Made by a program: the position numbers and the translations under genes. Positions 28,168-41,427 of a DNA stretch of 64,000 bases are shown in pieces. Origin of the DNA: Streptomyces sp. NBC_01231 (lineage in GTDB: Bacteria; Actinomycetota; Actinomycetes; Streptomycetales; Streptomycetaceae); assembly GCA_035999765.1 (NCBI GenBank), contig CP108521.1, forward strand, positions 992,001-1,056,000. Reading direction: 5' to 3'. A model generated the notes under the pieces. It was not told the DNA's origin. It worked only from the letters and a program-made list of their open reading frames with translations, and did no database searches. Position 1 is the first letter of the stretch, and every line of letters begins with the position of its first letter.

Positions 28168-29093
28168 ATGGACGGGGCCACGGAGCAGGCGCAGCGGGCG
28201 GGGTCTGGGCGAGACCGTGCGGTCCGGATGCAATCGGCTCCATGGCACGGACCAGCGGTGCTTGTTGCTCTGATGCTGGCCGCCTTCACCTTCAACACCG
28301 CGGAGAACCTGCCAGTCGGCCTCCTGGAGCTCATGTCCGAAGGCCTGAGGGTGTCCGTGCCGACGGTCGGTCTCTTGGGTACCGGTTATGGCGTAACGGT
28401 GGCCGTCGCGTCCGTGCCACTCGCCCACGTCATGCGGGACGTTCCCCGTCGACACGTGCTCACCGCGGTACTGGCCGCGCTCGTCGTGTCCAGGAAGAGC
28501 CCGCCGCATACGGAACCCATCCCGACCCTCGTAGGTTCGGGATCGAGTTGGGGGCCGGGGCCCTGTCCGCCACGGGGGCGTTCGCGGGGTACACCTACCT
28601 CGTCGCATTCCTGGGTGACGTGAGTGGCTTCCCCGGAGGGACGGTCAGCACCTTGCTCGTGGTGTTCGGTGGTGCGTGTCTGGCAGGGGTGAGCATCACC
28701 GGAGCGTTGCTGGACCGCTTTCCGCAGTCCGCGTTGGCCGTTGCCGTCACTACGCAGGCGGTGGACATGCTCGGCTTGTACGCGGCCGGCAGCGACCCGG
28801 TGGCGGCGGTGGTGTTCCTGGTGCTGACGGGCAGCGCGCTCGGCCCGGTCTTCATGACCACCCAGAACGCGATGTTGCGGTGCGCGCCGAGTCGCACGGA
28901 CATCGCACTCGCGGCGAACTCCGGTGCCTACAACCTCGGCATCGCGGCGGACGCCGCGCTCGGCGGACTGGTCCTGTCGCTGGCCGACGTACGGGGCGCC
29001 TTCCTCGCCGGCGGCCTGCTGACCGTCGGGGCCTGCACGGTGCTTCTCGGCGGGGGGCTGCTGCGTTGCCGGTCGGCGGCTGACGGCGGCTGA
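28168..29093 (+). pseudogene. Truncated and frameshifted MFS transporter
   Basis: The first part (28168 to about 28500) encodes the N-terminus and helices 1-3 (VALMLAAFTFNTAENLPVG, then TVGLLGTGYGVTVAVASVPL). The frame then changes near 28490-28540. The remainder, from FGIELGAGALSATGAFAGY to the stop at 29093, encodes what look like helices 7-12 of an AraJ/NepI-like sugar or drug exporter. The middle of a normal 400-residue protein (about helices 4-6) is missing. Both a deletion and a frame change are needed, so this is decay rather than a sequencing slip. The end holds three 10-bp direct repeats (29074-29103). Confidence 0.85.
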
Positions 29094-29717: not shown

Positions 29718-29939
29718 GGCCGGGAGTCTAGAGGTCTCCGGTACTCCGGTAGTCCGAACCCGCGCACGGCCTCAACAGAGCCCGTTCCGCACGCAGGCTC
29801 CCGTCCACACCCGTTCAGAAATTTCACGATCTCGCGCGCTTTCGACCGGCCGGCGCTAACCCGTGGCGGCCGTGTCGTGGTCACCGTCTCTCTTGCGTCG
29901 GGGCATCGCCGGTCGGCGGGCTTCGAGGAGGACAGGACG

Positions 29940-30016
29940 TAGTACCGCGGTACTAACGGGCCCCGCCGGATTCGGTTCCGCGGTACGGGATGGTCCCCCG
30001 GTACCGCTCCTAGGTT
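29940..30016 (+). promoter_or_regulatory. Promoter of MMPL copy A with palindromic activator site
   Basis: A perfect 16-bp palindrome TAGTACCGCGGTACTA lies at 29940-29955. A related half-site, CCGCGGTAC, lies at 29978-29986. A -10 box TAGGTT is at 30011-30016, with no good -35. The palindrome centre is 63.5 bp upstream of the first -10 base, the same as in copy B at 35571. Confidence 0.8.
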
Positions 30017-30078
30017 GAGATCGCGGGTCAGTCAGGCCCAGCTCACCCAATGATCTCTTCTCCTGGTGGGAGTAATCC

Positions 30079-32556
30079 GTGGCCACCTTCCTCTATCGGC
30101 TCGGCCGGCTGACGTTCCGGCGACGACGCCTTGTCGTGATGCTGTGGATCGGCGTCCTCGCCGCCATCGGCATCGGCGCCATGAGTGCGCCCGGCACCTC
30201 CTCCGGGGCTCTGAGCGTTCCGGGCACGCAGTCGCAGAAGGCGATCGACCTGCTGCGGAAGGAGTTCCCGCAGGCCTCCGCCGACGGCGCCACCGCGCGT
30301 GTGGTGTTCGAGGCGCCCGACGGGCAGAAGCTCACCTCCGGCGCCACCAAGGCCGAGGTCGAGTCCCTGGTGGCGAAGCTGGAGAAGTCACCGCAGGTGT
30401 CGGGCGTCTCGGATCCGTTCACCAGCGGTCTGGTCAGCAGGTCCGGCACCATCGCCTACGCCCAGGTGTCCTACATGGTCGCCCAGGCCGACGTCAGCGG
30501 CGCGGCCCACGCCGTGCAGACCGGTGTCGTCCAGCAGGGCGAGAAGGCGGGCCTGAAGGTGAGCCTGGGCGGCAACGCCGTCGAGAACAAGGCCACGAGC
30601 AAGGCGGCCGAGCTGATCGGCGTCGGGGTCGCCGCCGTCGTCCTGGTGATCACCTTCGGCTCGATGATCGCGGCCGGACTGCCCCTGCTCACCGCGATCC
30701 TCGGGGTGGCCGCGGCCGTCCTGTCGGTCACGCTCGCCACGCATTTCTTCGACCTGGCCTCGTCCTCCACGACCCTGGCACTGATGCTGGGCCTGGCCGT
30801 CGCCATCGACTACGCCCTGTTCATCGTCTCCCGCTACCGCAACGAGATCCGCGACGGCCACGAACCCGAGGAAGCGTGCGGACGTGCCGTGGGCACCGCC
30901 GGGTCGGCGGTCGTCTTCGCCGGTCTGACCGTGATCGTCGCGCTGAGCGGCCTGAGCGTCATCGGCATCGGCATGCTCACCTCGATGGGCCTGGCCTCCG
31001 CCTTCGCCGTCGCCGTCGCCGTGGTCATCGCGCTGACCCTGCTGCCCGCCGTCCTCGGCTTCGCCGGCCTGCGGATCATGAAGGGCAAGCTGCTCACCCG
31101 CCGTATGAAGGCGCTGGAGCGCGGCGAGGGCGAGTCGATGGGCGTGCGCTGGGCGAGGTTCGTCACCCGCAACCCGGTCAAGGTGCTCGCGGTGTCGGTG
31201 GTCGGCCTGGCCCTGCTGGCCATCCCCACGATGTCCCTGAAGATGGCCCTGAACGACGACTCCGGGAAGCCCCCCGGCACCACCCAGCGCATCGCCTACG
31301 ACACCCTCAGCGAGGGCTTCGGGCCGGGCTTCAACGGACCGCTCACCGTGGTCGTCGACGCCCGGGACAGCGACAGTCCCAAGGCAGCCGCCCAGGACGC
31401 GTACACCATGCTGAGCAAGCTGGACGATGTCGCCGCCGTCCGTCCTCCCTCCTTCAACCAGGCCGGCGACGTGGCCCTGCTCGGCGCCGTCCCCAAGAGC
31501 GCCCCCACCAGTGAGGCCACCAAGGACCTCGTGGGCGAGATCCGTGACCATGGGACCGCTCTGCACCAGGAATCCGGTGCCGACCTGATGGTCACCGGCC
31601 TGACGGCCGTCAACATCGACGTCAGCACCAAGCTCTCCGACGCCCTCGTGCCCTACCTGGCCATCGTCGTCGGTCTGGCCCTGATCCTGCTCCTGCTGGT
31701 CTTCCGGTCGATCGTGATCCCGCTCAAGGCCGCCCTGGGCTTCCTGCTCAGCGTGGTCTCGACCCTCGGTGTCCTGGTCGCGGTCTTCCAGTGGGGCTGG
31801 CTGAAGGACCTCTTCGGCGTCGACCAGACCGGACCCATCGTCAGCCTGCTGCCCATCGTGCTGATCGGCGTGGTGTTCGGACTCGCCATGGACTACGAGG
31901 TCTTCCTCGTCTCCCGCATGCGGGAGGAGTACGTCCACGGTGCCGAACCCACACAGGCCATCGTGCGGGGTTTCCGGCACAGCGGCCGGGTGGTCACCGC
32001 GGCCGCGGTCATCATGGTCTCCGTCTTCTCCGGATTCCTCCTCGACGACGAGGTGCTGATCAAGTCGATCGGGCTGGGGCTCGCCGCCGCCGTGTTCTTG
32101 GACGCCTTCGTCGTCCGGATGACCATCGTCCCGGCGGTGATGGCCCTGCTCGGCCACCGCTCCTGGACTTTGCCGAAGTGGCTGGACCGCATCCTGCCCG
32201 ACGTGGATGTCGAGGGCGAGAAACTGCGCCACGCGCTCGAAGCCGAACAGGCCGAACAGGCCGAACAGGCGGACTCCGCGCCTGAACTCGTACCCGCCGG
32301 TGTCGCCGCCGGTATCCACACGGACTCGGACGGCCACGGCGCTCCCCATCCCACCGGCGTCCCCGCTTCTGCTGTCACGGACGAGCCGGCACCTGCCCAG
32401 CAGGCCCCGGGGAAGGCTTCGGGGAAGGCCCGAGGACTGTCCAGGTTCAAGCAGCGCCTGGCACGGGGCGGTGACACCACCGTCCCCGCCGACACGACGG
32501 AGTCAAAGGCACCGGTACGCCGGAAGCTGCTGAAGAACCCGATGCGCAGGAGTTGA
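30079..32556 (+). CDS. MMPL/RND-type membrane exporter
   Basis: The 825-residue inner-membrane exporter is energised by the proton gradient and is related to ActII-3 and mycobacterial MmpL proteins that export lipids or antibiotics. It has the expected two halves: a first helix (VVMLWIGVLAAIGIGA) with an external loop, a five-helix bundle including MLGLAVAIDYALFIVSRYRNE, a second external loop, then a second bundle with GVVFGLAMDYEVFLVSRMRE. The two IDYALF/MDYEVF motifs hold the aspartates thought to carry protons. The C-terminal 130 residues are a hydrophilic Ala/Glu- and basic-rich tail. The GTG at 30079 has GGTGGGAG upstream. It is probably activated by the nearby two-component system. Confidence 0.92.
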   Translation: MATFLYRLGRLTFRRRRLVVMLWIGVLAAIGIGAMSAPGTSSGALSVPGTQSQKAIDLLRKEFPQASADGATARVVFEAPDGQKLTSGATKAEVESLVAKLEKSPQVSGVSDPFTSGLVSRSGTIAYAQVSYMVAQADVSGAAHAVQTGVVQQGEKAGLKVSLGGNAVENKATSKAAELIGVGVAAVVLVITFGSMIAAGLPLLTAILGVAAAVLSVTLATHFFDLASSSTTLALMLGLAVAIDYALFIVSRYRNEIRDGHEPEEACGRAVGTAGSAVVFAGLTVIVALSGLSVIGIGMLTSMGLASAFAVAVAVVIALTLLPAVLGFAGLRIMKGKLLTRRMKALERGEGESMGVRWARFVTRNPVKVLAVSVVGLALLAIPTMSLKMALNDDSGKPPGTTQRIAYDTLSEGFGPGFNGPLTVVVDARDSDSPKAAAQDAYTMLSKLDDVAAVRPPSFNQAGDVALLGAVPKSAPTSEATKDLVGEIRDHGTALHQESGADLMVTGLTAVNIDVSTKLSDALVPYLAIVVGLALILLLLVFRSIVIPLKAALGFLLSVVSTLGVLVAVFQWGWLKDLFGVDQTGPIVSLLPIVLIGVVFGLAMDYEVFLVSRMREEYVHGAEPTQAIVRGFRHSGRVVTAAAVIMVSVFSGFLLDDEVLIKSIGLGLAAAVFLDAFVVRMTIVPAVMALLGHRSWTLPKWLDRILPDVDVEGEKLRHALEAEQAEQAEQADSAPELVPAGVAAGIHTDSDGHGAPHPTGVPASAVTDEPAPAQQAPGKASGKARGLSRFKQRLARGGDTTVPADTTESKAPVRRKLLKNPMRRS

Positions 32557-32696
32557 CGAGAGCGAGCCGTAACACCGGCTTCCGCACCGGCTCCTGACGT
32601 GGCGGCCGACTCTCACCGGCCGTCTCCCCCCGCCCCGCCCGTCGGCCCGATCCCCCCGGGCCGGCGGGCGGCCTGACATCGCGAAGGGCCCATCCC

Positions 32697-34022
32697 GTGA
32701 CCGCACCGAGTGCCCCCGCTCCCGCCCCACGCCCGGACGAGCGCCAGTTCCTTCAGGCCCTGACGAGCGATCCCGAGCAGCGGGTGATCGTCTCGGTCGT
32801 CTCCCGGCTCGCCTCGTGGCGGCGGGCCGACCGGGCCCACCCCTGGGTCCGGCGGTGGGGGGTCCCGGTCTTCTGCTTCGCGGGCGGCAGCGACGCGTAC
32901 CTCAATCCCCACAACGTCGGCAATCCCCAGCTGCCGCTCGTCCTCGCCTTCTGTATCCCGCTGCTGTGGCGGGAACGACGCCCCATGCTGGTGTTCGCCC
33001 TCACCACGGCCGTTTCCGTCGTGTCCCTTCCTCTGGGTGTGCTGACCGGCGCCGAATTCGCCCGGGTGGTCGCCCTCTTCAATGTCGGCCGTCACTGCAC
33101 CCCACGCCGGCTGGCCCTCGCCACCGGTGTCACCCTCGTGCAACTCGTCGCATGGGCCTACTTCTTCTGGCGCGGCCAGCAGCTGGAGTACGTCACGCGT
33201 CCGGAGCCCGTGACCTTGATGGTGATGGTCGCCGTAGTGGCGTTCGCGGCACTGGGCCTGCTGGTGCGGCTGGCCAACGCCTACATCGACGCCCTGAAGA
33301 AGCAACGCGACCAGCAGGCCCGACTCGCCACCGCGCAGGAACGCGCCCGTGTCTCCCGCGAGATGCACGACATCCTCGGCCACACCCTCGCCGTCATCGT
33401 CGGCCTCGCGGACGGCGCAGCCGGCCTCACCGAGACCGAGCCCGAGCGCGGCGCCCAGACCCTCCGCACCATCAGCGTCAGCGGCCGCGACGCCCTGGCC
33501 GAACTTCGCCGCCTGCTCGCCGTCATCGGCGACGACCGCCACGGCCGGGACCGCCACGGCCAGGACCGCTCACACGACATTCCGCTCGCCCCGCAGCCCA
33601 GCCTCGCCGACCTCGACGCCCTGCTCGACCGAGTCCGCGCCGCCGGCCCGACCGTCGCCCTGCACGCACACGGCGACCTCACCGAACTGGCCCCGGGACT
33701 CCAGCTGTCCGCGTACCGCATCATCCAGGAGGCCCTGACCAACACCGTCAAGTACGCCGCCTCCGACAGCTCGGTCCACGTCTCCATCGCCGCCGACCCC
33801 GACAGCGTGCGCCTCACGGTCGAGGACACCGGCCCGCCCCGTACCCCGCGTGCACGCGTTGGCCGGACGGGCAGCGGGCGGGGCCTGATCGGCATGCGCG
33901 AGCGCGCCGCCCTCTACCGGGGCGAGGTCACCGCCGGCCCCAACCCTCACGGCGGCTGGACCGTCCACGCCGTCCTCATCACCAATCCGCCGGTCAACTC
34001 CCTTGAGAGGCAACCCGCTTGA
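32697..34022 (+). CDS. NarL-type sensor histidine kinase, copy A
   Basis: The 441-residue membrane kinase has four to five helices between residues 50 and 195, a HisKA_3 dimerisation domain with the phospho-acceptor His224 in EMHDILGH, and a C-terminal HATPase with QEALTNTVKYA and GRGLIGMRERA. All key motifs are intact. The GTG at 32697 follows CGAAGGGC at the same spacing as copy B. It is closely related along its whole length to the kinase at 36146-37477 (for example AHPWVRRWGVP, WRERRPMLVFA and VALFNVGR are shared). Its cognate regulator gene downstream is broken, so it either signals to the copy B regulator or is idle. Confidence 0.92.
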   Translation: MTAPSAPAPAPRPDERQFLQALTSDPEQRVIVSVVSRLASWRRADRAHPWVRRWGVPVFCFAGGSDAYLNPHNVGNPQLPLVLAFCIPLLWRERRPMLVFALTTAVSVVSLPLGVLTGAEFARVVALFNVGRHCTPRRLALATGVTLVQLVAWAYFFWRGQQLEYVTRPEPVTLMVMVAVVAFAALGLLVRLANAYIDALKKQRDQQARLATAQERARVSREMHDILGHTLAVIVGLADGAAGLTETEPERGAQTLRTISVSGRDALAELRRLLAVIGDDRHGRDRHGQDRSHDIPLAPQPSLADLDALLDRVRAAGPTVALHAHGDLTELAPGLQLSAYRIIQEALTNTVKYAASDSSVHVSIAADPDSVRLTVEDTGPPRTPRARVGRTGSGRGLIGMRERAALYRGEVTAGPNPHGGWTVHAVLITNPPVNSLERQPA

Positions 34023-34215
34023 CCATAGTCACCGTCGACGACCAAGCGCTGCAGCGGACTGGGCTTCGGCATGCTGCTGGAGGCTCGGCCCTGGCCTCAC
34101 CGTCGTCGGCGGGGCCGCGGACCAGCGCGGCAGTCCGTACCGCCCCGGACTCCGCCGATGCCGTCCTGACGGATCGGTGTACGACCCATGCCGCAGGACT
34201 CGCCGACCGGCGTGA
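34019..34215 (+). pseudogene. Broken response regulator, copy A
   Basis: The TTG at 34019 overlaps the kinase stop, as in the intact pair. The first codons read MTIVTVDDQALQR, matching the copy B regulator. An extra base near 34058 then shifts the frame; restoring it gives LGFGMLLE as in copy B. A second shift near 34083 and a further change follow, with scraps such as GLTVVGGA and AVRTAPDSADAVLTD still recognisable in different frames. The LuxR helix-turn-helix is gone. The remnant fades out near 34215. Confidence 0.88.
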
Positions 34216-34494
34216 CCGCACCTCCGCCCCGAGTCGACGCACCTTCCTACCCCGGTACCGCTCGGCCCCTCCGTATTCGGTCCCACGGTGCCGATGACAA
34301 GCGCGTTTCCCCGCCTAGTTTGACGGCAGGTTCGCACACGCCCTCATCCCCACCTGCTCCGGGCAAGCCTTCCACCTCCCCCAGCCGGCCCTGCCGGTCC
34401 CGCTCCGGGCACCGCCGCCCATCGCACACAGCCGCCTGGCCTGCGGTGCCCGCCCAGCAGTTGGTCATCCGTGACGACGACAGGAGAGAAAACC

Positions 34495-35429
34495 ATGGGA
34501 CCGTACGCACGCGCAGGTCTGGCCGGAATCATGAGCTGCGGCGTTCTGCTCACCGCCGTCCTCATCGGACGACCGGACGGCACCTACGACAACGCGGGGA
34601 CGAGGGCCCGCAGCCGGGACCCTACGTCGCTCTCGGCGACTCCTACACCTCCGGCCCGAAGATCCCCCGACAGACCGGGACGCCGGTCGGCTGCGACCGC
34701 TCCGACCACAACTACCCCGCACTGGTGGCACGCCAACTCGGCGTCAGAGCCTCCCACTTCCGTGACATCAGCTGCAGCGGCGCCACCATCACCAGGCTCA
34801 CCTCGCCGCAGACGACGTCCAACGGCACCAACCCCGCCCAGCTTTCGGCCCTCTCGACACGGACGCGGCTGGTCACCCTCGGCATCGGCGGCAACGACAT
34901 CGGCTTCGGCTCGACGGTCACGCGATGCGTCACGATGGGGTCGCTGTACCGCGCGACCGGCGGCGGACGCCTCTTCTCCGACACCGCGCCCTGCAAGAAG
35001 CAGTACGTCGACGGCGGCACCGACGAAGTGGCACAGAAGATCCAGGCGACCGGCCGGCAGCTGTCCGCGGCACTGGCCGCGATCGAACGGCGCGCTCCGA
35101 AGGCCCGCGTCTACGTCGTCGGCTATCCGGCGATCCTGCCCGCCGAAGGGAAAGGCTGCGGCAAGGAGCTGCCTCTCGCACCCGGTGACGCGACCTACCT
35201 GCACGACAAGGAGAAGCAGCTCAACACCATGCTGCGCGAGCAGGCCGAGGCCGCCGGAGCAGCGTACGTCGACACCTACTCCCCGTCCGTCGGCCGCGAC
35301 GCCTGCTCCGCTGAGCACACGCGCTGGATCGAGCCTCTGCGGCCCACCAGGCCGGCCGCCGCCGTCCATCCGAACGCGCACGGCGAGCAAGGCATGGCCG
35401 ATGCCGTGCTCCGCGCGATCGGCGACTGA
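34495..35429 (+). pseudogene. Secreted SGNH/GDSL hydrolase, frameshifted after the signal peptide
   Basis: AGGAGAG and an ATG at 34495 start a signal peptide (AGLAGIMSCGVLLTAVLIG). The catalytic domain is in another frame from about 34600: GDS nucleophile block in VALGDSYTSG, GxND block in GIGGNDIGF and the catalytic His in VHPNAHG. All expected residues for a secreted esterase/lipase of about 300 residues are there. Adding one G to the GGGG run at 34596-34599 restores a single frame reading NAGDEGPQPGPYVALGD. A recent one-base loss, a phase-variable tract or a sequencing error would each explain it. It sits between the two exporter cassette copies and is not part of either. Confidence 0.8.
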
Positions 35430-35570
35430 TCGACACCGTCCCCCGCATCGCATCGACGACAGCCCGCCCCGCACACCATTCGCTCGCCGCCCCCTCCGCC
35501 CGGCCCCGCTCGCCACGACCCCGTGAGGCAGACCGTGGACCACTCATCGCAGCCGCAAGGAGGATGGAGC

Positions 35571-35648
35571 CTAGTACCGCGGTACTAGTCAGTGTCGCCG
35601 CATTCCCGCCCGCAGTGCCGTAGCGCCCGTTGATACCGCTTCTAGGGT
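35571..35648 (+). promoter_or_regulatory. Promoter of the copy B cassette with palindromic activator site
   Basis: A perfect 18-bp palindrome CTAGTACCGCGGTACTAG lies at 35571-35588. A -10 box TAGGGT is at 35643-35648, again without a good -35. The spacing to the -10 box equals that in copy A. The flanks around the -10 box (TACCGCTTCTAGG) and the leader down to the start codon are also shared with copy A. Confidence 0.8.
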
Positions 35649-35709
35649 GAAGTCCGGGCCAGGTCGGGCCCCGTCCATGCAATGACCTCTTCTCTGGCGG
35701 GAGTAACCC

Positions 35710-35860
35710 GTGGCCACCGTCCTGCACCGACTCGATCCGGTCGGCGTTTCACTCCGACCATCGGTTGCCACCTCGTGGATCACCATCCCGACATCGGCGA
35801 TCCTCAGCGGCTCGTCGCAGGCCCCCTGGCCGGCCGCCTTGGGACTCGCCGTGGCGTCAC
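35710..35860 (+). pseudogene. Remnant of the copy B MMPL gene
   Basis: The leader CTGGCGGGAGTAACCC and GTG at 35710 match the copy A exporter start almost base for base. The first residues read MATVLHRLDP against MATFLYRLGR in copy A. Resemblance becomes patchy within about 150 bases, and the remaining 2.3 kb of the gene is absent. The sequence from here to 36120 has no recognisable coding content. Confidence 0.75.
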
Positions 35861-36145
35861 GGTCCGCCTCGCCTCCACCGTGTTCGCGGGCCGGAAGTCG
35901 CGCCGCGCAGTCGAAGCCCGGCAGGGCGCCCACCGCACGGCCGCCTTCTTACCGGGGTGGGCCCCCGGCTCCGGCGACGCGGGCGCCGGCCAGGCCAGGA
36001 CGACCGCCGAACCAGAGCCGCTGTCGGCCGTACGATCACGGAAGGACGGTCGGCCCCGGTCGGCGTTCTCCCCCCAGTCGCCGCCCCTCCGCCCATTCAC
36101 CGGGGGCCGGCGAGCGGCTCGCCTGCACCGCGAAGGGCACAGACC

Positions 36146-37477
36146 TTGACCTCCACGCCCCCACCGGAATCCCGGCCCGGTCGACAGGTTCCCGACCGGC
36201 CCGCGCTGCCCGAGGCACTGACGAGCGATGCTGAGCAGCGTGTGATGGTGTCGATCATTGTGCGGCTGTCTTCCTGGCGGTGGGCGGACCGGGCCCACCC
36301 CTGGGTTCGGCGGTGGGGCGTGCCGCTGTTCTGCGTCGCCGTGGGCCTGCCGTCCGTACTCGATCCCGCCGGTGACTCCGCAGTCGCCGAAGAGCTGGCC
36401 CTCACCATCGCCGTGGTCGTTCCGCTGGTGTGGCGCGAGCGCAGGCCCATGCTGGTCTTCGCACTCATTACCGCCACCGCCGTGCTCACGACCTACGCAG
36501 GGTCGCTCCACGGCGACAGCGCCAGCGCCGACGTCGCCCGCGTCGTGGCCCTGTTCAACGTGGGCCGCTTCGGTACCCCCCGCCAGCTGCTCATCGCCGT
36601 CGCCATCTCCCTGGCGCAGCTGGTCGCCTGGGCCGCCAGGCTCTGGAGCGACGGTCAGCTGGAGTACGCCGCACGCCCGGAACCGGTCATGCTGCTGGGG
36701 GCGGTGACGGTCACGGCCATCGCCGGCCTCGGCCTCGCCACCCGCCTGGTCAACGTCGTCATCGCCGCACTGCAGAAGGAGAAGGACCAGCAGGCCCGCC
36801 TCGCCGTCGCCCAGGAACGTGCCCGCGTCTCGAAGGAGATGCACGACATCCTCGGCCACACCCTCGCCGTCATGGTCGGCCTCGCCGACGGCGCCGCGGG
36901 CCTGACCGAGACAAAGCCCCAGCGCGGCGCCGAGACCCTGCGGATCATCGCCGACAGCGGCCGCGGCGCCCTCGCCGAACTGCGCCGCCTCCTCTCCGTC
37001 ATCGGCGACGACAGCGACCCGGATGGTGCCCCGCTCGCCCCGCAGCCCGGGCTGGCCGACCTCGATCCGCTGATCGAACGCGTCCGCGCCGCCGGCCCGA
37101 GCGTCACCCTCAGCGCCGACGGCGACCTCACCGCGCCGGCCCCCGGTCTCCAGCTGGCCGTCTACCGCATCGTCCAGGAAGCCCTCACCAACGCCCTCAA
37201 ATACGCCGCCGCCGACACCTCCATCAGCGTCCGGGTAGCCATCGGGTCCGGCACGGTCCACGTCGACGTGGAGGACACCGGCCCCCTCCACGCACCCCGC
37301 TCCCGGAGACGGAGCGCCGCAAACGGCCGCGGTCTGGTCGGCATGCGCGAGCGCGCGGCCATCTACCAGGGCCAGGTCACCGCCGGACCCAACCGCCAGG
37401 GCGGCTGGAGCGTCCACGCCCGCCTCCTGACCACCCCGCCCTCATCCACGACCACGACGGAGAACCCCCGCGCATGA
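36146..37477 (+). CDS. NarL-type sensor histidine kinase, copy B
   Basis: The 443-residue membrane kinase has helices between residues 55 and 205, the phospho-acceptor His233 in EMHDILGH and an HATPase domain with QEALTNALKYA and GRGLVGMRERA. It pairs with the regulator gene that overlaps its stop (ATGA). The TTG at 36146 was chosen because CGAAGGGC and the following MTSTPPP align with the GTG start of copy A; the frame is open about 380 bases further, but that upstream part overlaps the MMPL remnant. The signal sensed is unknown. Kinases of this type next to MMPL exporters often respond to envelope stress or antibiotics, which is inference here. Confidence 0.92.
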   Translation: MTSTPPPESRPGRQVPDRPALPEALTSDAEQRVMVSIIVRLSSWRWADRAHPWVRRWGVPLFCVAVGLPSVLDPAGDSAVAEELALTIAVVVPLVWRERRPMLVFALITATAVLTTYAGSLHGDSASADVARVVALFNVGRFGTPRQLLIAVAISLAQLVAWAARLWSDGQLEYAARPEPVMLLGAVTVTAIAGLGLATRLVNVVIAALQKEKDQQARLAVAQERARVSKEMHDILGHTLAVMVGLADGAAGLTETKPQRGAETLRIIADSGRGALAELRRLLSVIGDDSDPDGAPLAPQPGLADLDPLIERVRAAGPSVTLSADGDLTAPAPGLQLAVYRIVQEALTNALKYAAADTSISVRVAIGSGTVHVDVEDTGPLHAPRSRRRSAANGRGLVGMRERAAIYQGQVTAGPNRQGGWSVHARLLTTPPSSTTTTENPRA

Positions 37478-38130
37478 CCACCGTCCTCATCGTCGACGAC
37501 CAGGCCCTGCAACGCCTCGGTTTCAGCATGCTCCTGGAACAGCACCCCGACCTCACCCTCATCGGCGAGGCCACCCATGGTGCCGAAGCCGTCCGCAAGG
37601 CGGCCGAGCTCAAGCCCGATGTCGTCCTCATGGACGTCCGCATGCCCGGCATGGACGGCATCGAGGCCACCAGACGCATCGTCGAGTCCGGCGGCCGCTC
37701 CCGCATCCTGGTCCTGACCACCTTCGACCTCGACGAATACGCCTACGACGCCCTGCGAGCCGGAGCGTCCGGGTTCCTGCTCAAAGACGCCATGCCCGAC
37801 GAACTCGTCGCCGGTATTCGCGCGGTGGCCGCCGGAGACGCCGTCATCTCTCCCGGCCTGACGCGCAAGCTCATCGACGCCTTCGGCAGCCGCCTTCCGG
37901 GTCACACGCCCGAACAGCAACGGCAGCTGGGCCGCCTCACCAACCGCGAACGCGAAGTACTCACCGCCATGGCGACCGGCTGGAGCAACACCGAGATCGC
38001 CGAACGCTTCTCACTCGCCGAGTCCACCGTCAAGTCGCACGTGAGCAGCATCCTCACCAAGATCGGGGTCCGGGACCGGGTCCAAGCGGTGATCTTCGCC
38101 TACGACACCGGCCTCGTCCGACCTGCCTGA
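37474..38130 (+). CDS. NarL/LuxR-type response regulator, copy B
   Basis: The 218-residue protein has a receiver domain with the acidic pair DD8-9, phospho-acceptor Asp54 in VLMDVRMPGMDG and Lys104 in GFLLKDAM. A LuxR-type helix-turn-helix follows (LTNREREVLTAMATGWSNTE onward). It is intact, unlike its copy A counterpart. It is the only complete regulator of the duplicated cassette and the best candidate to bind the TAGTACCGCGGTACTA palindromes at 29940 and 35571. Its 3' end overlaps the convergent DedA-type gene by 31 bases. Confidence 0.93.
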   Translation: MTTVLIVDDQALQRLGFSMLLEQHPDLTLIGEATHGAEAVRKAAELKPDVVLMDVRMPGMDGIEATRRIVESGGRSRILVLTTFDLDEYAYDALRAGASGFLLKDAMPDELVAGIRAVAAGDAVISPGLTRKLIDAFGSRLPGHTPEQQRQLGRLTNREREVLTAMATGWSNTEIAERFSLAESTVKSHVSSILTKIGVRDRVQAVIFAYDTGLVRPA

Positions 38131-38780: not shown

Positions 38781-39502
38781 CGACTCGCCCCGTCGAACTG
38801 CGGCTCGGGGTGGTCCGCGGAGACGAGGGGTCGTTGCAGATGCCAGACGTAGGCGGGGGGAACGTTGGCCCATACCGTCCAGCGGCCCGTGGCGTAGGTG
38901 CTCTGGTAGGCGGACATGATGTCGTCGACGGCGGCGTGGCGGCGGGCTTCGGCTCGCGATGCCGTCAGGGCACGCGCCTTGCGGGTGCCGAGGTAGGCGA
39001 AGTAGGTCAGGGTGCCGCCGGGGTGGAGCAGTTCCATGTAGCGGGCCATGATCCGCCCGACCTGCTCGGGCGTGAAGTTGGTCAACGGCAGACCCGAGAC
39101 GATCACGTCGTAGCGCTGGTCGCTGTCGAGCTGCTCGACGTAGGTCTGATGCACGTTCACCTGCGCGGGCCTGGCAGCCAGGTCAGGATGTGTGGTGACG
39201 AGACGGCGCAGTCGCGCGGCGAAACGCGGGTTTGCCTCGACGATGTCCAGGCGGCTGGCTCGGGGCAGTTCGGGTATCAGGGTGCGGGTGACCGCGCCGG
39301 TGCCGGCGCCGGCCTCCAGGACCGCCAGCGGTCGGGGTGCCTGAGCGCGTACGGGATCGGTCAGAGCGCGGGCCAGGGCCTTTCCGCTGGGGGCTATGGC
39401 ACCCGTGGTGCGCAGATCACGAGCTGCCTCGATCAGGAACATCCAGCCTTCGGCATTGCGCTGCGCCAGGACACGGTCGTGGGAGGTGGTCCAGTCGTTC
39501 AT
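38777..39502 (-). CDS. Class I SAM-dependent methyltransferase, PmtA-like
   Basis: The 241-residue soluble protein has the SAM-binding motif I LAVLEAGAGTGAVTRTL and motif II acidic residue in LDIVEANPRFAARL. The motif IV region is YDVIVSGLPLTNF, where SGLP resembles the SGLPL motif of bacterial phospholipid N-methyltransferases and the related rRNA-methylase group. Coupling to a DedA-type protein supports a lipid substrate, such as phosphatidylethanolamine or an ornithine lipid, but this is inference. The ATG at 39502 gives a normal length. It is divergent from the third two-component pair. Confidence 0.82.
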   Translation of the reverse strand: MNDWTTSHDRVLAQRNAEGWMFLIEAARDLRTTGAIAPSGKALARALTDPVRAQAPRPLAVLEAGAGTGAVTRTLIPELPRASRLDIVEANPRFAARLRRLVTTHPDLAARPAQVNVHQTYVEQLDSDQRYDVIVSGLPLTNFTPEQVGRIMARYMELLHPGGTLTYFAYLGTRKARALTASRAEARRHAAVDDIMSAYQSTYATGRWTVWANVPPAYVWHLQRPLVSADHPEPQFDGASR

Positions 39503-39621
39503 GGAATTGACGCTAGAAAGCCGCGATCGGCATCGGATCCGCCGTTCTGCGACGGCGTCCCCCTACGAAAGTTGGGGGTGACCATCGCCGACCGTCGGAC
39601 GGAACGACGCACCGGTCTGCC

Positions 39622-39637
39622 TAGCATGGGCCTGGTG
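39622..39637 (+). promoter_or_regulatory. Possible promoter for a leaderless kinase transcript
   Basis: TAGCAT at 39622-39627 fits a -10 box, and a GTG start follows 7 bases later at 39635. No ribosome binding site is visible. This arrangement is typical of leaderless mRNAs in Streptomyces. The -35 is poor. Confidence 0.4.
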
Positions 39638-40780
39638 AGCAGCAGAGATGGCCGCAGACGGCCGGCCTACGGGCGTGGCGCACTCGTGGCGTTGTGCGTA
39701 CTGGCCGCCGCGCTCAACGACATGTCGTTGGAAGGGCGCCACCTGGCCCCCGTCATCACCGCGGCGCTGGTGTGCGGAACGGCGCTGCTCGTGCCCCGGC
39801 TGCGATGGCCGATCGCACCGCTGTTGGTCACCGTGGCCACGGCGTGGTGGGGATGGCCGTTGCTGCCGCTGCTGGCAGTCGCCCTGTTCGACCTGGCCGT
39901 GGATCGCCGGGCACGGGTGGCGGTGGGATGTGCCGTCGCCGCCCTGGGCGCCAACCTGCTCAGCTACCGGGCCACCTCCCTGTGGACGGCGCAGTCCTAC
40001 GCGTCCACGCTGCTCCTGCCGGTGCTGGCCATGCTCGTCGGGCTGTGGCTGGGTGGCCGGCGCCGCCTGGTCCAGGCACTGGCGGCCGACGTCGAGCACC
40101 TGCGCATCGAGTCGGAGTTGCGCGAGGAGGCGGCCCGCATCGCGGAACGGTCCCGTATCGCCGCCGAGATGCACGACGTCCTGGCCCATCGCCTGAGTCT
40201 GATCGCGCTGCACACCGGAGTGCTGGCCACCAAGGGCGACATGCTGCCCGCACCGGTCACGGAACGACTCGGTCTGCTGCGCACGGCGTCCGTCGAAGCC
40301 CTCACCGATCTGCGCGATGTTCTCGGGGTGCTGCGCGACCCCGACGCCTCGCCGACCAGCTCCGCGCTCACGCCGGTGATGAGGGACGTGGGGGAACTGG
40401 CGGACGAGGCCCGCGCCGCCGGCCAGCGCGTCGAGCTGACCATCGACGGCCTTCCCGAGCAGGCTCCCACCACCCACCGCCTGGCCGTGCACCGCGTCGT
40501 CCAGGAAGCACTGACCAACGCCCGCAAGCACGCCGACGGTGCTCCAGTGACCGTACGCATCGACTACCGGCCGCCCGCCACCCTCGTCGAGGTCACCAAC
40601 CCTCCTGGCACTCCCCGCACGGACACCGTCGGCAGCGGCTACGGGCTCGTCGGCCTGCGCGAACGCGTCACCGCCCTCGGCGGCCACCTGAACGCCGGAC
40701 CGGCCGGCGCGGGCGCCTGGCGACTGGCCGCCCGTATCCCCCGCCCCGCTGCCCTCGAAGAGAACGGCACCCGCACATGA
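39635..40780 (+). CDS. NarL-type sensor histidine kinase
   Basis: The 381-residue membrane kinase has about six helices in residues 12-145, the phospho-acceptor His180 in AEMHDVLAHRLSLIA, and the HATPase motifs QEALTNARKHA and GYGLVGLRERV. It resembles DesK/LiaS-like kinases more than the duplicated kinases upstream. The start is uncertain: ATG at 39626 or GTG at 39635, neither with a ribosome binding site. The GTG is preferred for its position just after a -10-like box. Its stop overlaps the regulator start (ATGA). The stimulus is unknown. Confidence 0.88.
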   Translation: MSSRDGRRRPAYGRGALVALCVLAAALNDMSLEGRHLAPVITAALVCGTALLVPRLRWPIAPLLVTVATAWWGWPLLPLLAVALFDLAVDRRARVAVGCAVAALGANLLSYRATSLWTAQSYASTLLLPVLAMLVGLWLGGRRRLVQALAADVEHLRIESELREEAARIAERSRIAAEMHDVLAHRLSLIALHTGVLATKGDMLPAPVTERLGLLRTASVEALTDLRDVLGVLRDPDASPTSSALTPVMRDVGELADEARAAGQRVELTIDGLPEQAPTTHRLAVHRVVQEALTNARKHADGAPVTVRIDYRPPATLVEVTNPPGTPRTDTVGSGYGLVGLRERVTALGGHLNAGPAGAGAWRLAARIPRPAALEENGTRT

Positions 40781-41427
40781 TCCGCGCCATGATCGTCGAC
40801 GATGACGCCCTGGTCCGCCTCGGCCTGGCCGACCTCCTCGAAGGCGACCAGGGCATCGAGGTGGTGGCCCAGGCCGCCGACGGCCTCCAGGCCATCGAGC
40901 AGGCCACGGCACACCGCGTCGACGTCGCGCTCGTCGACGTACGCATGCCCCGCATGGACGGCATCACCGCCACGCCCCGGCTACGGGCCCTCCCCCACCC
41001 CCCGAAGGTGATCACTCTGACCACCTTCGACCTCGACGAATACGTCTACGACGCCCTCGCCGCCGGAGCCGACGGGTTCCTCCTCAAGGACACCGACCCA
41101 GCCGAAATACTGCGCGCCGTCCATCTTGTGGCCGCGGGCTCGGCCATGCTCCACCCCACCGCGGCCCGCCGCCTCATCGACCGCTACCACGCCACCAACC
41201 AGCCCCAAGTCGCCGCGGCCCAGGCCCGTTTGGAGCGGCTCACCCCCCGCGAACGCGACGTACTCGCCCTGCTCGCCCAGGGCGACACCAACGCCGACAT
41301 CGCCACGTGTCTCGCCATGCGCGAGAGCACCGTCAAGGCCCACGTGAGTCGCATCCTGACCGCGCTGGAGGTCACCAACCGCGTCCAAGCCGCCCTCGTG
41401 GCCCGCGACGCAGGCCTCACCACCTGA
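40777..41427 (+). CDS. NarL/LuxR-type response regulator
   Basis: The 216-residue partner of the preceding kinase has a receiver domain with acidic residues DDD8-10, phospho-acceptor Asp54 in ALVDVRMPRMDG and the conserved lysine in GFLLKDTD. The C-terminal HTH is LTPRERDVLALLAQGDTNAD onward. All activation residues are intact. The two genes are translationally coupled. Targets cannot be deduced; no copy of the TACCGCGGTA palindrome lies next to this pair. Confidence 0.93.
   Translation: MIRAMIVDDDALVRLGLADLLEGDQGIEVVAQAADGLQAIEQATAHRVDVALVDVRMPRMDGITATPRLRALPHPPKVITLTTFDLDEYVYDALAAGADGFLLKDTDPAEILRAVHLVAAGSAMLHPTAARRLIDRYHATNQPQVAAAQARLERLTPRERDVLALLAQGDTNADIATCLAMRESTVKAHVSRILTALEVTNRVQAALVARDAGLTT

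Follow-up and report, generated by a model that had tools for sequence, protein, structure and literature searches.

The window analysed here is a stretch of 64,000 nucleotides (positions 992001-1056000 of the single-contig genome of Streptomyces sp. NBC_01231, 11,338,389 bases), within which two related exporter/two-component units follow one another. The recognisable parts of the locus, in positions of the window, are:

29940..29955, no strand given: putative operator A, a perfect palindrome TAGTACCGCGGTACTA, found by pattern search
30004..30022, plus strand: promoter-like block of leader A, CCGCTCCTAGGTTGAGATC, conserved across the aligned leaders
30079..32556, plus strand: MMPL exporter (exporter A), intact, 825 aa, from the open frame and Pfam
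32697..34022, plus strand: histidine kinase A, HisKA_3 + HATPase_c, intact, 441 aa, from the open frame and Pfam
34019..34174, plus strand: response regulator A relic with two 1-nt insertions and small deletions, the remainder deleted
34245..34260, no strand given: degenerate operator ahead of the lipase, from alignment with relatives
34495..35429, plus strand: GDSL lipase of cassette A (domain frame 34617-35429), from Pfam
35424..35470, plus strand: regulator C (RR2) relic of about 47 bp, from comparison with relatives
35572..35587, no strand given: putative operator B, a perfect palindrome TAGTACCGCGGTACTA, found by pattern search
35636..35654, plus strand: promoter-like block of leader B, conserved across the aligned leaders
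35710..35735, plus strand: exporter B start-codon relic, from alignment to exporter A
36146..37477, plus strand: histidine kinase B, HisKA_3 + HATPase_c, intact, 443 aa, TTG start at 36146
37474..38130, plus strand: response regulator B, receiver + LuxR-type HTH, intact, 218 aa, from Pfam

Unit A is composed, in order, of the palindrome, the promoter-like block, the MMPL exporter, kinase A, the broken regulator A, the degenerate operator and the GDSL lipase, and unit B of the palindrome, the promoter-like block, the exporter relic, kinase B and regulator B. An earlier note on this DNA had described two homologous leader-exporter-kinase-regulator units 5.6 kb apart and had suggested their alignment at the nucleotide level. 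This alignment confirmed the description, as the leaders (29926-30103 and 35558-35734) are 72% identical (129/179) and the kinase regions (32617-34116 and 36061-37572) 71% identical (1106/1553), with 5632 bp separating operator A from operator B. A chance origin of the likeness between the two units is excluded. The same inventory had omitted the GDSL lipase of cassette A and the relic of a third regulator of about 47 bp at 35424-35470. Both kinases carry the HisKA_3 and HATPase_c domains above the Pfam cut-off, and so does regulator B its receiver and GerE domains, with all five receiver residues present (D8, D9, D54, T83 and K104). With two kinases encoded beside a single intact regulator, the locus has the parts list of an AbrC-type system. 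Just upstream of it (28168-29093), an MFS-transporter-like protein extends over two frames and looks frameshifted when read by eye.

The comparison covered 392 Streptomyces genomes and 80 loci, 18 of the latter being annotated (L029-L045 and L048); matches were collected from a minimum of 300 aligned residues for the kinase, 190 for the regulator, 600 for the exporter and 200 for the lipase. With kinase A as a query (E <= 1e-100), matches were found in 29 of the 392 genomes. Both kinase types occur in seven of them (the window's genome, G011, G125, G140, G239, G261 and G291), lying in G011 and G125 on different contigs, where adjacency is not demonstrated. Moreover, both types are found on one contig in S. 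flaveus JCM 3035 and S. phaeochromogenes NRRL B-1248, and S. hokutonensis has kinase B and regulator B on a contig starting inside leader B. In G140 and G291, the genes MMPL-HK A-lipase-HK B-RR B follow one another at intervals of about 0.2 kb and operator B is absent, an arrangement that looks like one operon built from the same parts. The two units are farther apart in G239 (L165), where about 9 kb of additional DNA lies between regulator C and operator B. Stand-alone cassettes were also identified: G033, G236, G068 and G266 carry MMPL-HK-RR1-lipase-RR2 (the lipase of G033 being in two pieces), the cassette of G091 gave no lipase match, and in G014 an RR2-type gene lies upstream of MMPL-HK-RR1-lipase. 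G011 has an additional, complete MMPL-HK-RR cassette (L126, G011:C5:668000-686000) whose operator has one mismatch, which brings the family kinases of this genome to three, and a kinase A-type cassette lies near each end of the G253 chromosome (C1:65521-66801 and 11474032-11475312), with equal scores and in opposite orientation as in terminal inverted repeats.

The reciprocal loss that the earlier note had described, leaving one exporter, one canonical regulator and two kinases, was found to be the same in every assessable tandem genome when gene order was compared in related Streptomyces, a comparison which the note had also suggested. In copy A the exporter and the kinase are open, and the regulator is indeed frameshifted at least twice: it starts at 34019 and, when aligned to an intact relative, displays two 1-nt insertions and several small deletions before ending after about 155 nt. 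Regulator A is intact in none of the seven assessable tandem genomes (a count leaving out G011 and G125, whose contigs end at that point). Relics of it were found in the window, S. flaveus, S. phaeochromogenes and G239; G261 has about 240 bp of weak similarity at this position, and no clear relic was detected in the 193 and 148 bp examined in G140 and G291, respectively. Relative to intact RR1, four small indels (near 44, 73-76, 106 and 141) are common to the window, S. flaveus and G239, and none of them is among the indels of S. phaeochromogenes. Because the two sets differ, regulator A appears to have decayed by at least two routes, besides its removal in G140 and G291, even though an earlier lesion of another kind may be common to these lineages.

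In copy B, kinase and regulator are intact as previously described, but the exporter leftover, taken to be about 150 bases, comes down to about 25 recognisable coding nucleotides (35710-35735). The rest of the window's sequence up to kinase B aligned to the exporter with a score of 27, the shuffled mean being 27.1 and 93 of 200 shuffles scoring at least as high. An exporter is absent ahead of kinase B in all nine assessable genomes (intact in 0/9). Nevertheless, a 45-nt piece in S. flaveus and G239 matches the 3′ end of the exporter at 32210-32254 (0/200 shuffles as good), while the same search for a relic in S. phaeochromogenes gave nothing above shuffles (14/200 as good).

Regulator C, the third regulator, is open in S. 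flaveus, S. phaeochromogenes, G239 and G011, reduced to a fragment in G125 and to about 47 bp in the window, and it gave no match in G140, G291 or G261. The four open copies have the phospho-Asp replaced by His and the conserved Lys by Glu, whereas the six stand-alone RR2 rows all keep the phospho-Asp, with Asn in place of Asp8 in five and Pro or Ala in place of Thr83 in six. The copies in L029 (6668-7324), L030 (6890-7543), L165 and L125 retain the HTH, but neither the phospho-Asp (D to H) nor the Thr nor the Lys, which makes regulator C a candidate phosphorylation-independent regulator.

Exporter A contains the MMPL domain (PF03176, 313 bits, in two stretches). Its nearest solved relative is MmpL3 (E 2.7e-57), the mycobacterial trehalose monomycolate exporter of the same superfamily, of which it is not an ortholog, as it scores 262.8 bits and the NCBIfam cut-off for MmpL3 is 1400. 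A lipid or envelope role with a lipid-like export substrate is suggested by this relationship to MmpL3 and by the GDSL lipase that usually lies next to the exporter. The lipase of the window belongs to cassette A, since the stand-alone cassettes carry a lipase after RR1. A 1-nt frame break (34495-34620) puts its signal peptide and its domain into different frames, reflecting either decay or a sequencing error; read by eye, this break is not found in S. flaveus or S. phaeochromogenes.

Regarding the history of the two units, a tree of 50 kinases (the distant row L134 HKA being dropped) places kinase A of nine tandem genomes together with nine stand-alone kinases, including the third kinase of G011, in one group (100/100). 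A separate group (100/100), outside the former and adjoining it (90/83), is made up of kinase B from ten genomes. The earlier note had interpreted the locus as duplicated in tandem, with a subfunctional division afterwards, which named the sisterhood of A and B before the AU test was run; forcing it cost 54.7 log-likelihood units (AU p = 0.0002). Kinases A and B are hence not each other's closest relatives and a recent tandem duplication is rejected. In fact, their proteins are 63% identical (the next kinase in the genome reaching 40%), so that the pair is not a recent copy. Since kinase A groups with stand-alone kinases and kinase B lies outside, these are two already diverged cassettes that stand as neighbours, neither being a fresh copy of the other. 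In the regulator tree (the short row L178 at 9804 being dropped), the nine rows of regulator B (100/99) and the nine of RR1 (92/93) form distinct groups, the branching order of which is without support. The regulator A relics were also tried as a second test of ancestry and set aside, as a DNA tree leaves them unplaced and their grouping with regulator B is not rejected (p = 0.367); their BLAST scores favour stand-alone RR1 genes.

Tentatively, and at odds just short of even, we attribute the locus to a merger rather than to the copying of a sensor. Cassettes with a common operator would have met, regulator A would have been lost by lineage-specific lesions with its kinase kept, regulator B would have become the hub, and the atypical third regulator would have lost its phospho-Asp (D to H) and been deleted repeatedly, the living species representing successive stages of this rewiring. 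The kinase tree comes near to the two independent acquisitions that the earlier note had set against its own proposal, but an old duplication with later losses elsewhere is also quite possible, if clearly below an even chance. According to this alternative, the cassette was duplicated before the split from the stand-alone lineages and unit B was lost there, with no merger across lineages; the position of kinase B next to the A and stand-alone group would fit, as would the finding that no cassette B with a whole exporter exists outside the tandem clade among the 80 loci and 392 genomes. It requires, on the other hand, the loss of unit B in every stand-alone lineage, and the stand-alone loci were seen without the DedA-methyltransferase neighbours of the tandem locus. 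The third NarL-type kinase and regulator, directly downstream at 38810-41427 of the window, are kept beside DedA and the methyltransferase in the tandem genomes whose contig reaches there, and in G226. The latter is 92.6% identical over this DedA-methyltransferase-HK3-RR3 block and keeps the last 24 codons of regulator B, the rest of the locus being gone, so that this remnant is a scar of loss. In the stretches examined of seven more distant genomes (L215-L221), some of them below 2 kb on the relevant side, the block is accompanied by neither kinase B nor regulator B.

Both kinases are under purifying selection. In the dN/dS comparison, also suggested in the earlier note, median omega was 0.34 for kinase A (sensor 0.25, DHp 0.34, CA 0.48; 28 pairs) and 0.40 for kinase B (sensor 0.54, DHp 0.20, CA 0.37; 28 pairs), against 0.21-0.45 in seven stand-alone pairs, these being Nei-Gojobori estimates that are biased in GC-rich DNA and meaningful as comparisons alone. 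The corresponding values were 0.33 for the exporter (28 pairs), 0.32 for the lipase (21 pairs), 0.084 for regulator B (21 pairs) and 0.43 for regulator C (6 pairs); the sets exclude S. hokutonensis and, except for regulator C, G011, and include the second piece only of the G125 exporter. An unusual constraint on regulator B was considered and dismissed, its omega lying inside the 0.056-0.216 of six stand-alone pairs, and no sign of relaxed selection on kinase A after the loss of its regulator was found relative to the stand-alone kinases. Kinase A is without internal stop in eight of nine tandem rows (G011 having a stop at codon 165 of the row) and kinase B in nine of ten (in G261 a stop lies 23 codons ahead of the end of the row). 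In S. phaeochromogenes, kinase B is truncated by the contig end, and the G125 frame continues beyond the usual end. It could be argued that kinase A is a remnant whose frame is still open only because decay set in recently or because it travels with the exporter. The in-frame stop of G011 and the almost complete loss of the locus in G226 would agree with this, yet kinase A stays open in the other eight rows next to a decayed regulator A and its omega is not above that of the stand-alone kinases, which makes this explanation highly doubtful.

Identity between kinases A and B of one genome (eight genomes compared) is 51% for the sensor part, 82% for the DHp domain and 65% for the ATPase domain. 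Across the loci of the family, DHp identity ranges from 79 to 89%, so that the 82% is ordinary and the interface has never diverged; it indicates missing insulation and not selection for sharing, and an excess similarity of the docking region was discarded as a sign of such selection. Of the 50 residues surrounding the active His, A and B share 41, whereas the third kinase shares 27 and 24 with them, respectively. HDILGH-type motifs of HisKA_3 kinases have a phosphatase role. Both kinases keep the HDILGH segment and near-identical dimer helices, and perhaps they form a heterodimer, or one of them acts mainly as a phosphatase, making up one composite sensor instead of two independent ones. We regard this as improbable, as sensor parts that are only 51% identical fit separate signals at least as well.

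The 16-base palindrome TAGTACCGCGGTACTA occurs in two perfect copies in the whole 11.3-Mb genome, and these are the ones in leaders A and B. Across the 392 Streptomyces genomes, seven perfect sites were found in six genomes, with none for the reversed-pattern control. All seven head an operon encoding a regulator of the subfamily of regulator B (in leader A, its relic), the first gene being the MMPL exporter in leader A, now kinase B in leader B, an ABC exporter in L133-L136 (assigned from sequence starts, and by NCBIfam for L136 only) and a kinase in L132. The regulators of these five outside loci are 64-70% identical to regulator B. It was observed that in the ABC exporter-HK-RR operons of L133-L136 operator and regulator subfamily stay paired as the type of exporter changes. 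A chance origin of the two perfect palindromes was rejected, since 0 of 100 window shuffles gave two sites, even at 3 mismatches, and the control had no perfect site in 392 genomes. Allowing up to one mismatch, 13 chosen genomes gave 21 sites against 3 for the control, while in the window's genome inexact sites show no excess over the reversed-pattern control (4 vs 3 at up to 2 mismatches, 3 vs 2 at up to 1) and thus gain weight from their position only. One such site, TAGTACCCCGGTACTA at C1:4925847, lies about 30 bp ahead of a kinase gene (L137 pair) whose partner at C1:4927189 is the regulator most similar to regulator B in the genome (68%). The degenerate operator ahead of the lipase reads TCCTACCGCGGTACTA in S. 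flaveus, S. phaeochromogenes, G239 and G261. Operator B was found, with up to 2 mismatches, in six of nine tandem genomes and is missing in G140, G291 and G261, and two other MMPL-HK-RR cassettes of the window's genome (L138 and L139) are without an operator site. A MacR motif is TGAGTACnnGTACTCA. Because perfect sites head operons of its subfamily, we infer that regulator B binds TAGTACCGCGGTACTA in both leaders, and it is probably an activator at both, as the operator is situated about 50 bp ahead of the promoter-like block.

Starting from the observed arrangement of the parts and their losses, the distinct lines of descent of the two kinases, the purifying selection and the common operator, our main reading, to which we assign a probability of roughly 0.6, is that two related cassettes of different ancestry lost regulator A and exporter B, and that kinases A and B both act on regulator B, bound at both leaders. 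The two exporter/two-component cassettes would have become, or remained, neighbours in one Streptomyces lineage. As their regulators would read the same operator and their kinases had kept near-identical docking helices, one regulator and one exporter would have been dispensable and decayed. The outcome would be a convergent circuit, in which kinases A and B, whose sensor parts differ strongly, both act on regulator B, which would bind the palindrome in both leaders, controlling the exporter and kinase A on one side and kinase B and itself on the other; the exporter would thereby come under two signals. Two sensors wired to one output is, judging from sequence, the best functional reading, with a predicted phosphotransfer from kinase A to regulator B. 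The retention of both kinases, the loss of regulator A (0/7) and exporter B (0/9), the two perfect operators, the docking match of 41/50 and the five receiver residues of regulator B all argue for such sharing. It is weakened by the missing operator B in G140, G291 and G261, by inexact operator matches not above control, by the stops of kinase A in G011 and kinase B in G261, and by the second regulator, 68% identical to B, with its one-mismatch operator. This last point raises the possibility that kinase A is now paired with a regulator elsewhere, such as the one at C1:4927189 in the TAGTACCCCGGTACTA operon, leaving regulator B for kinase B only. Such a regulator with its operator is present in the window's genome, and regulators 68-71% identical to B occur in G011, G125, G140, G239 and G291. 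Still, G261 keeps kinase A without any regulator at 60%-93% identity to B (E <= 1e-70), the third kinase's docking segment matches kinase A at only 27 of 50 residues, and the perfect operator of leader A is closer to leader B than to the third site, so this pairing seems unlikely. For the sharing of regulator B by both kinases, G261 is informative, as regulators A and C are gone there and the next regulator is only 59% identical to B, which would make regulator B the natural partner of kinase A.

Two kinases acting with one regulator have a precedent in AbrC1/AbrC2/AbrC3 of Streptomyces coelicolor, where two histidine kinases 57% identical in protein accompany one response regulator, and where one such triad was counted in the genome in a review (PMC4428217, PMC9739842). 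The likeness lies in two kinases beside one regulator, the kinase identity being 63% in the window locus; the latter differs by having an MMPL exporter and a lipase with one kinase, a perfect operator in both units and visible relics. Ancestry was compared with the only HK-HK-RR triad seen in the window's genome (C1:5456099-5459010), which resembles AbrC in gene order only and whose regulator is 54% identical to regulator B. The stand-alone cassettes of G033, G236, G068 and G266 share the gene order of cassette A, and those of G236, G068 and G266 also the operator type, but they have a single kinase with its own intact RR1 and no unit B. Similarly, L133-L136 and L137 resemble the locus in being headed by the perfect operator (with a single mismatch in L137) and in having related regulators, whereas they have an ABC exporter or none instead of MMPL and kinases only about 40% identical. 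In the openly available literature, no description of the operator or of an MMPL-linked Streptomyces two-component system was found.

The locus supplies a precise candidate operator for an exporter-associated regulator subfamily, and the proposed wiring would be testable by one binding assay and one phosphotransfer assay. The origin of several sensors acting on one regulator is usually known from end states only. Here, the intermediates appear to be alive in related species, in which a frameshifted relic, a near-complete excision and the loss of a phospho-Asp are found beside kinases under purifying selection.
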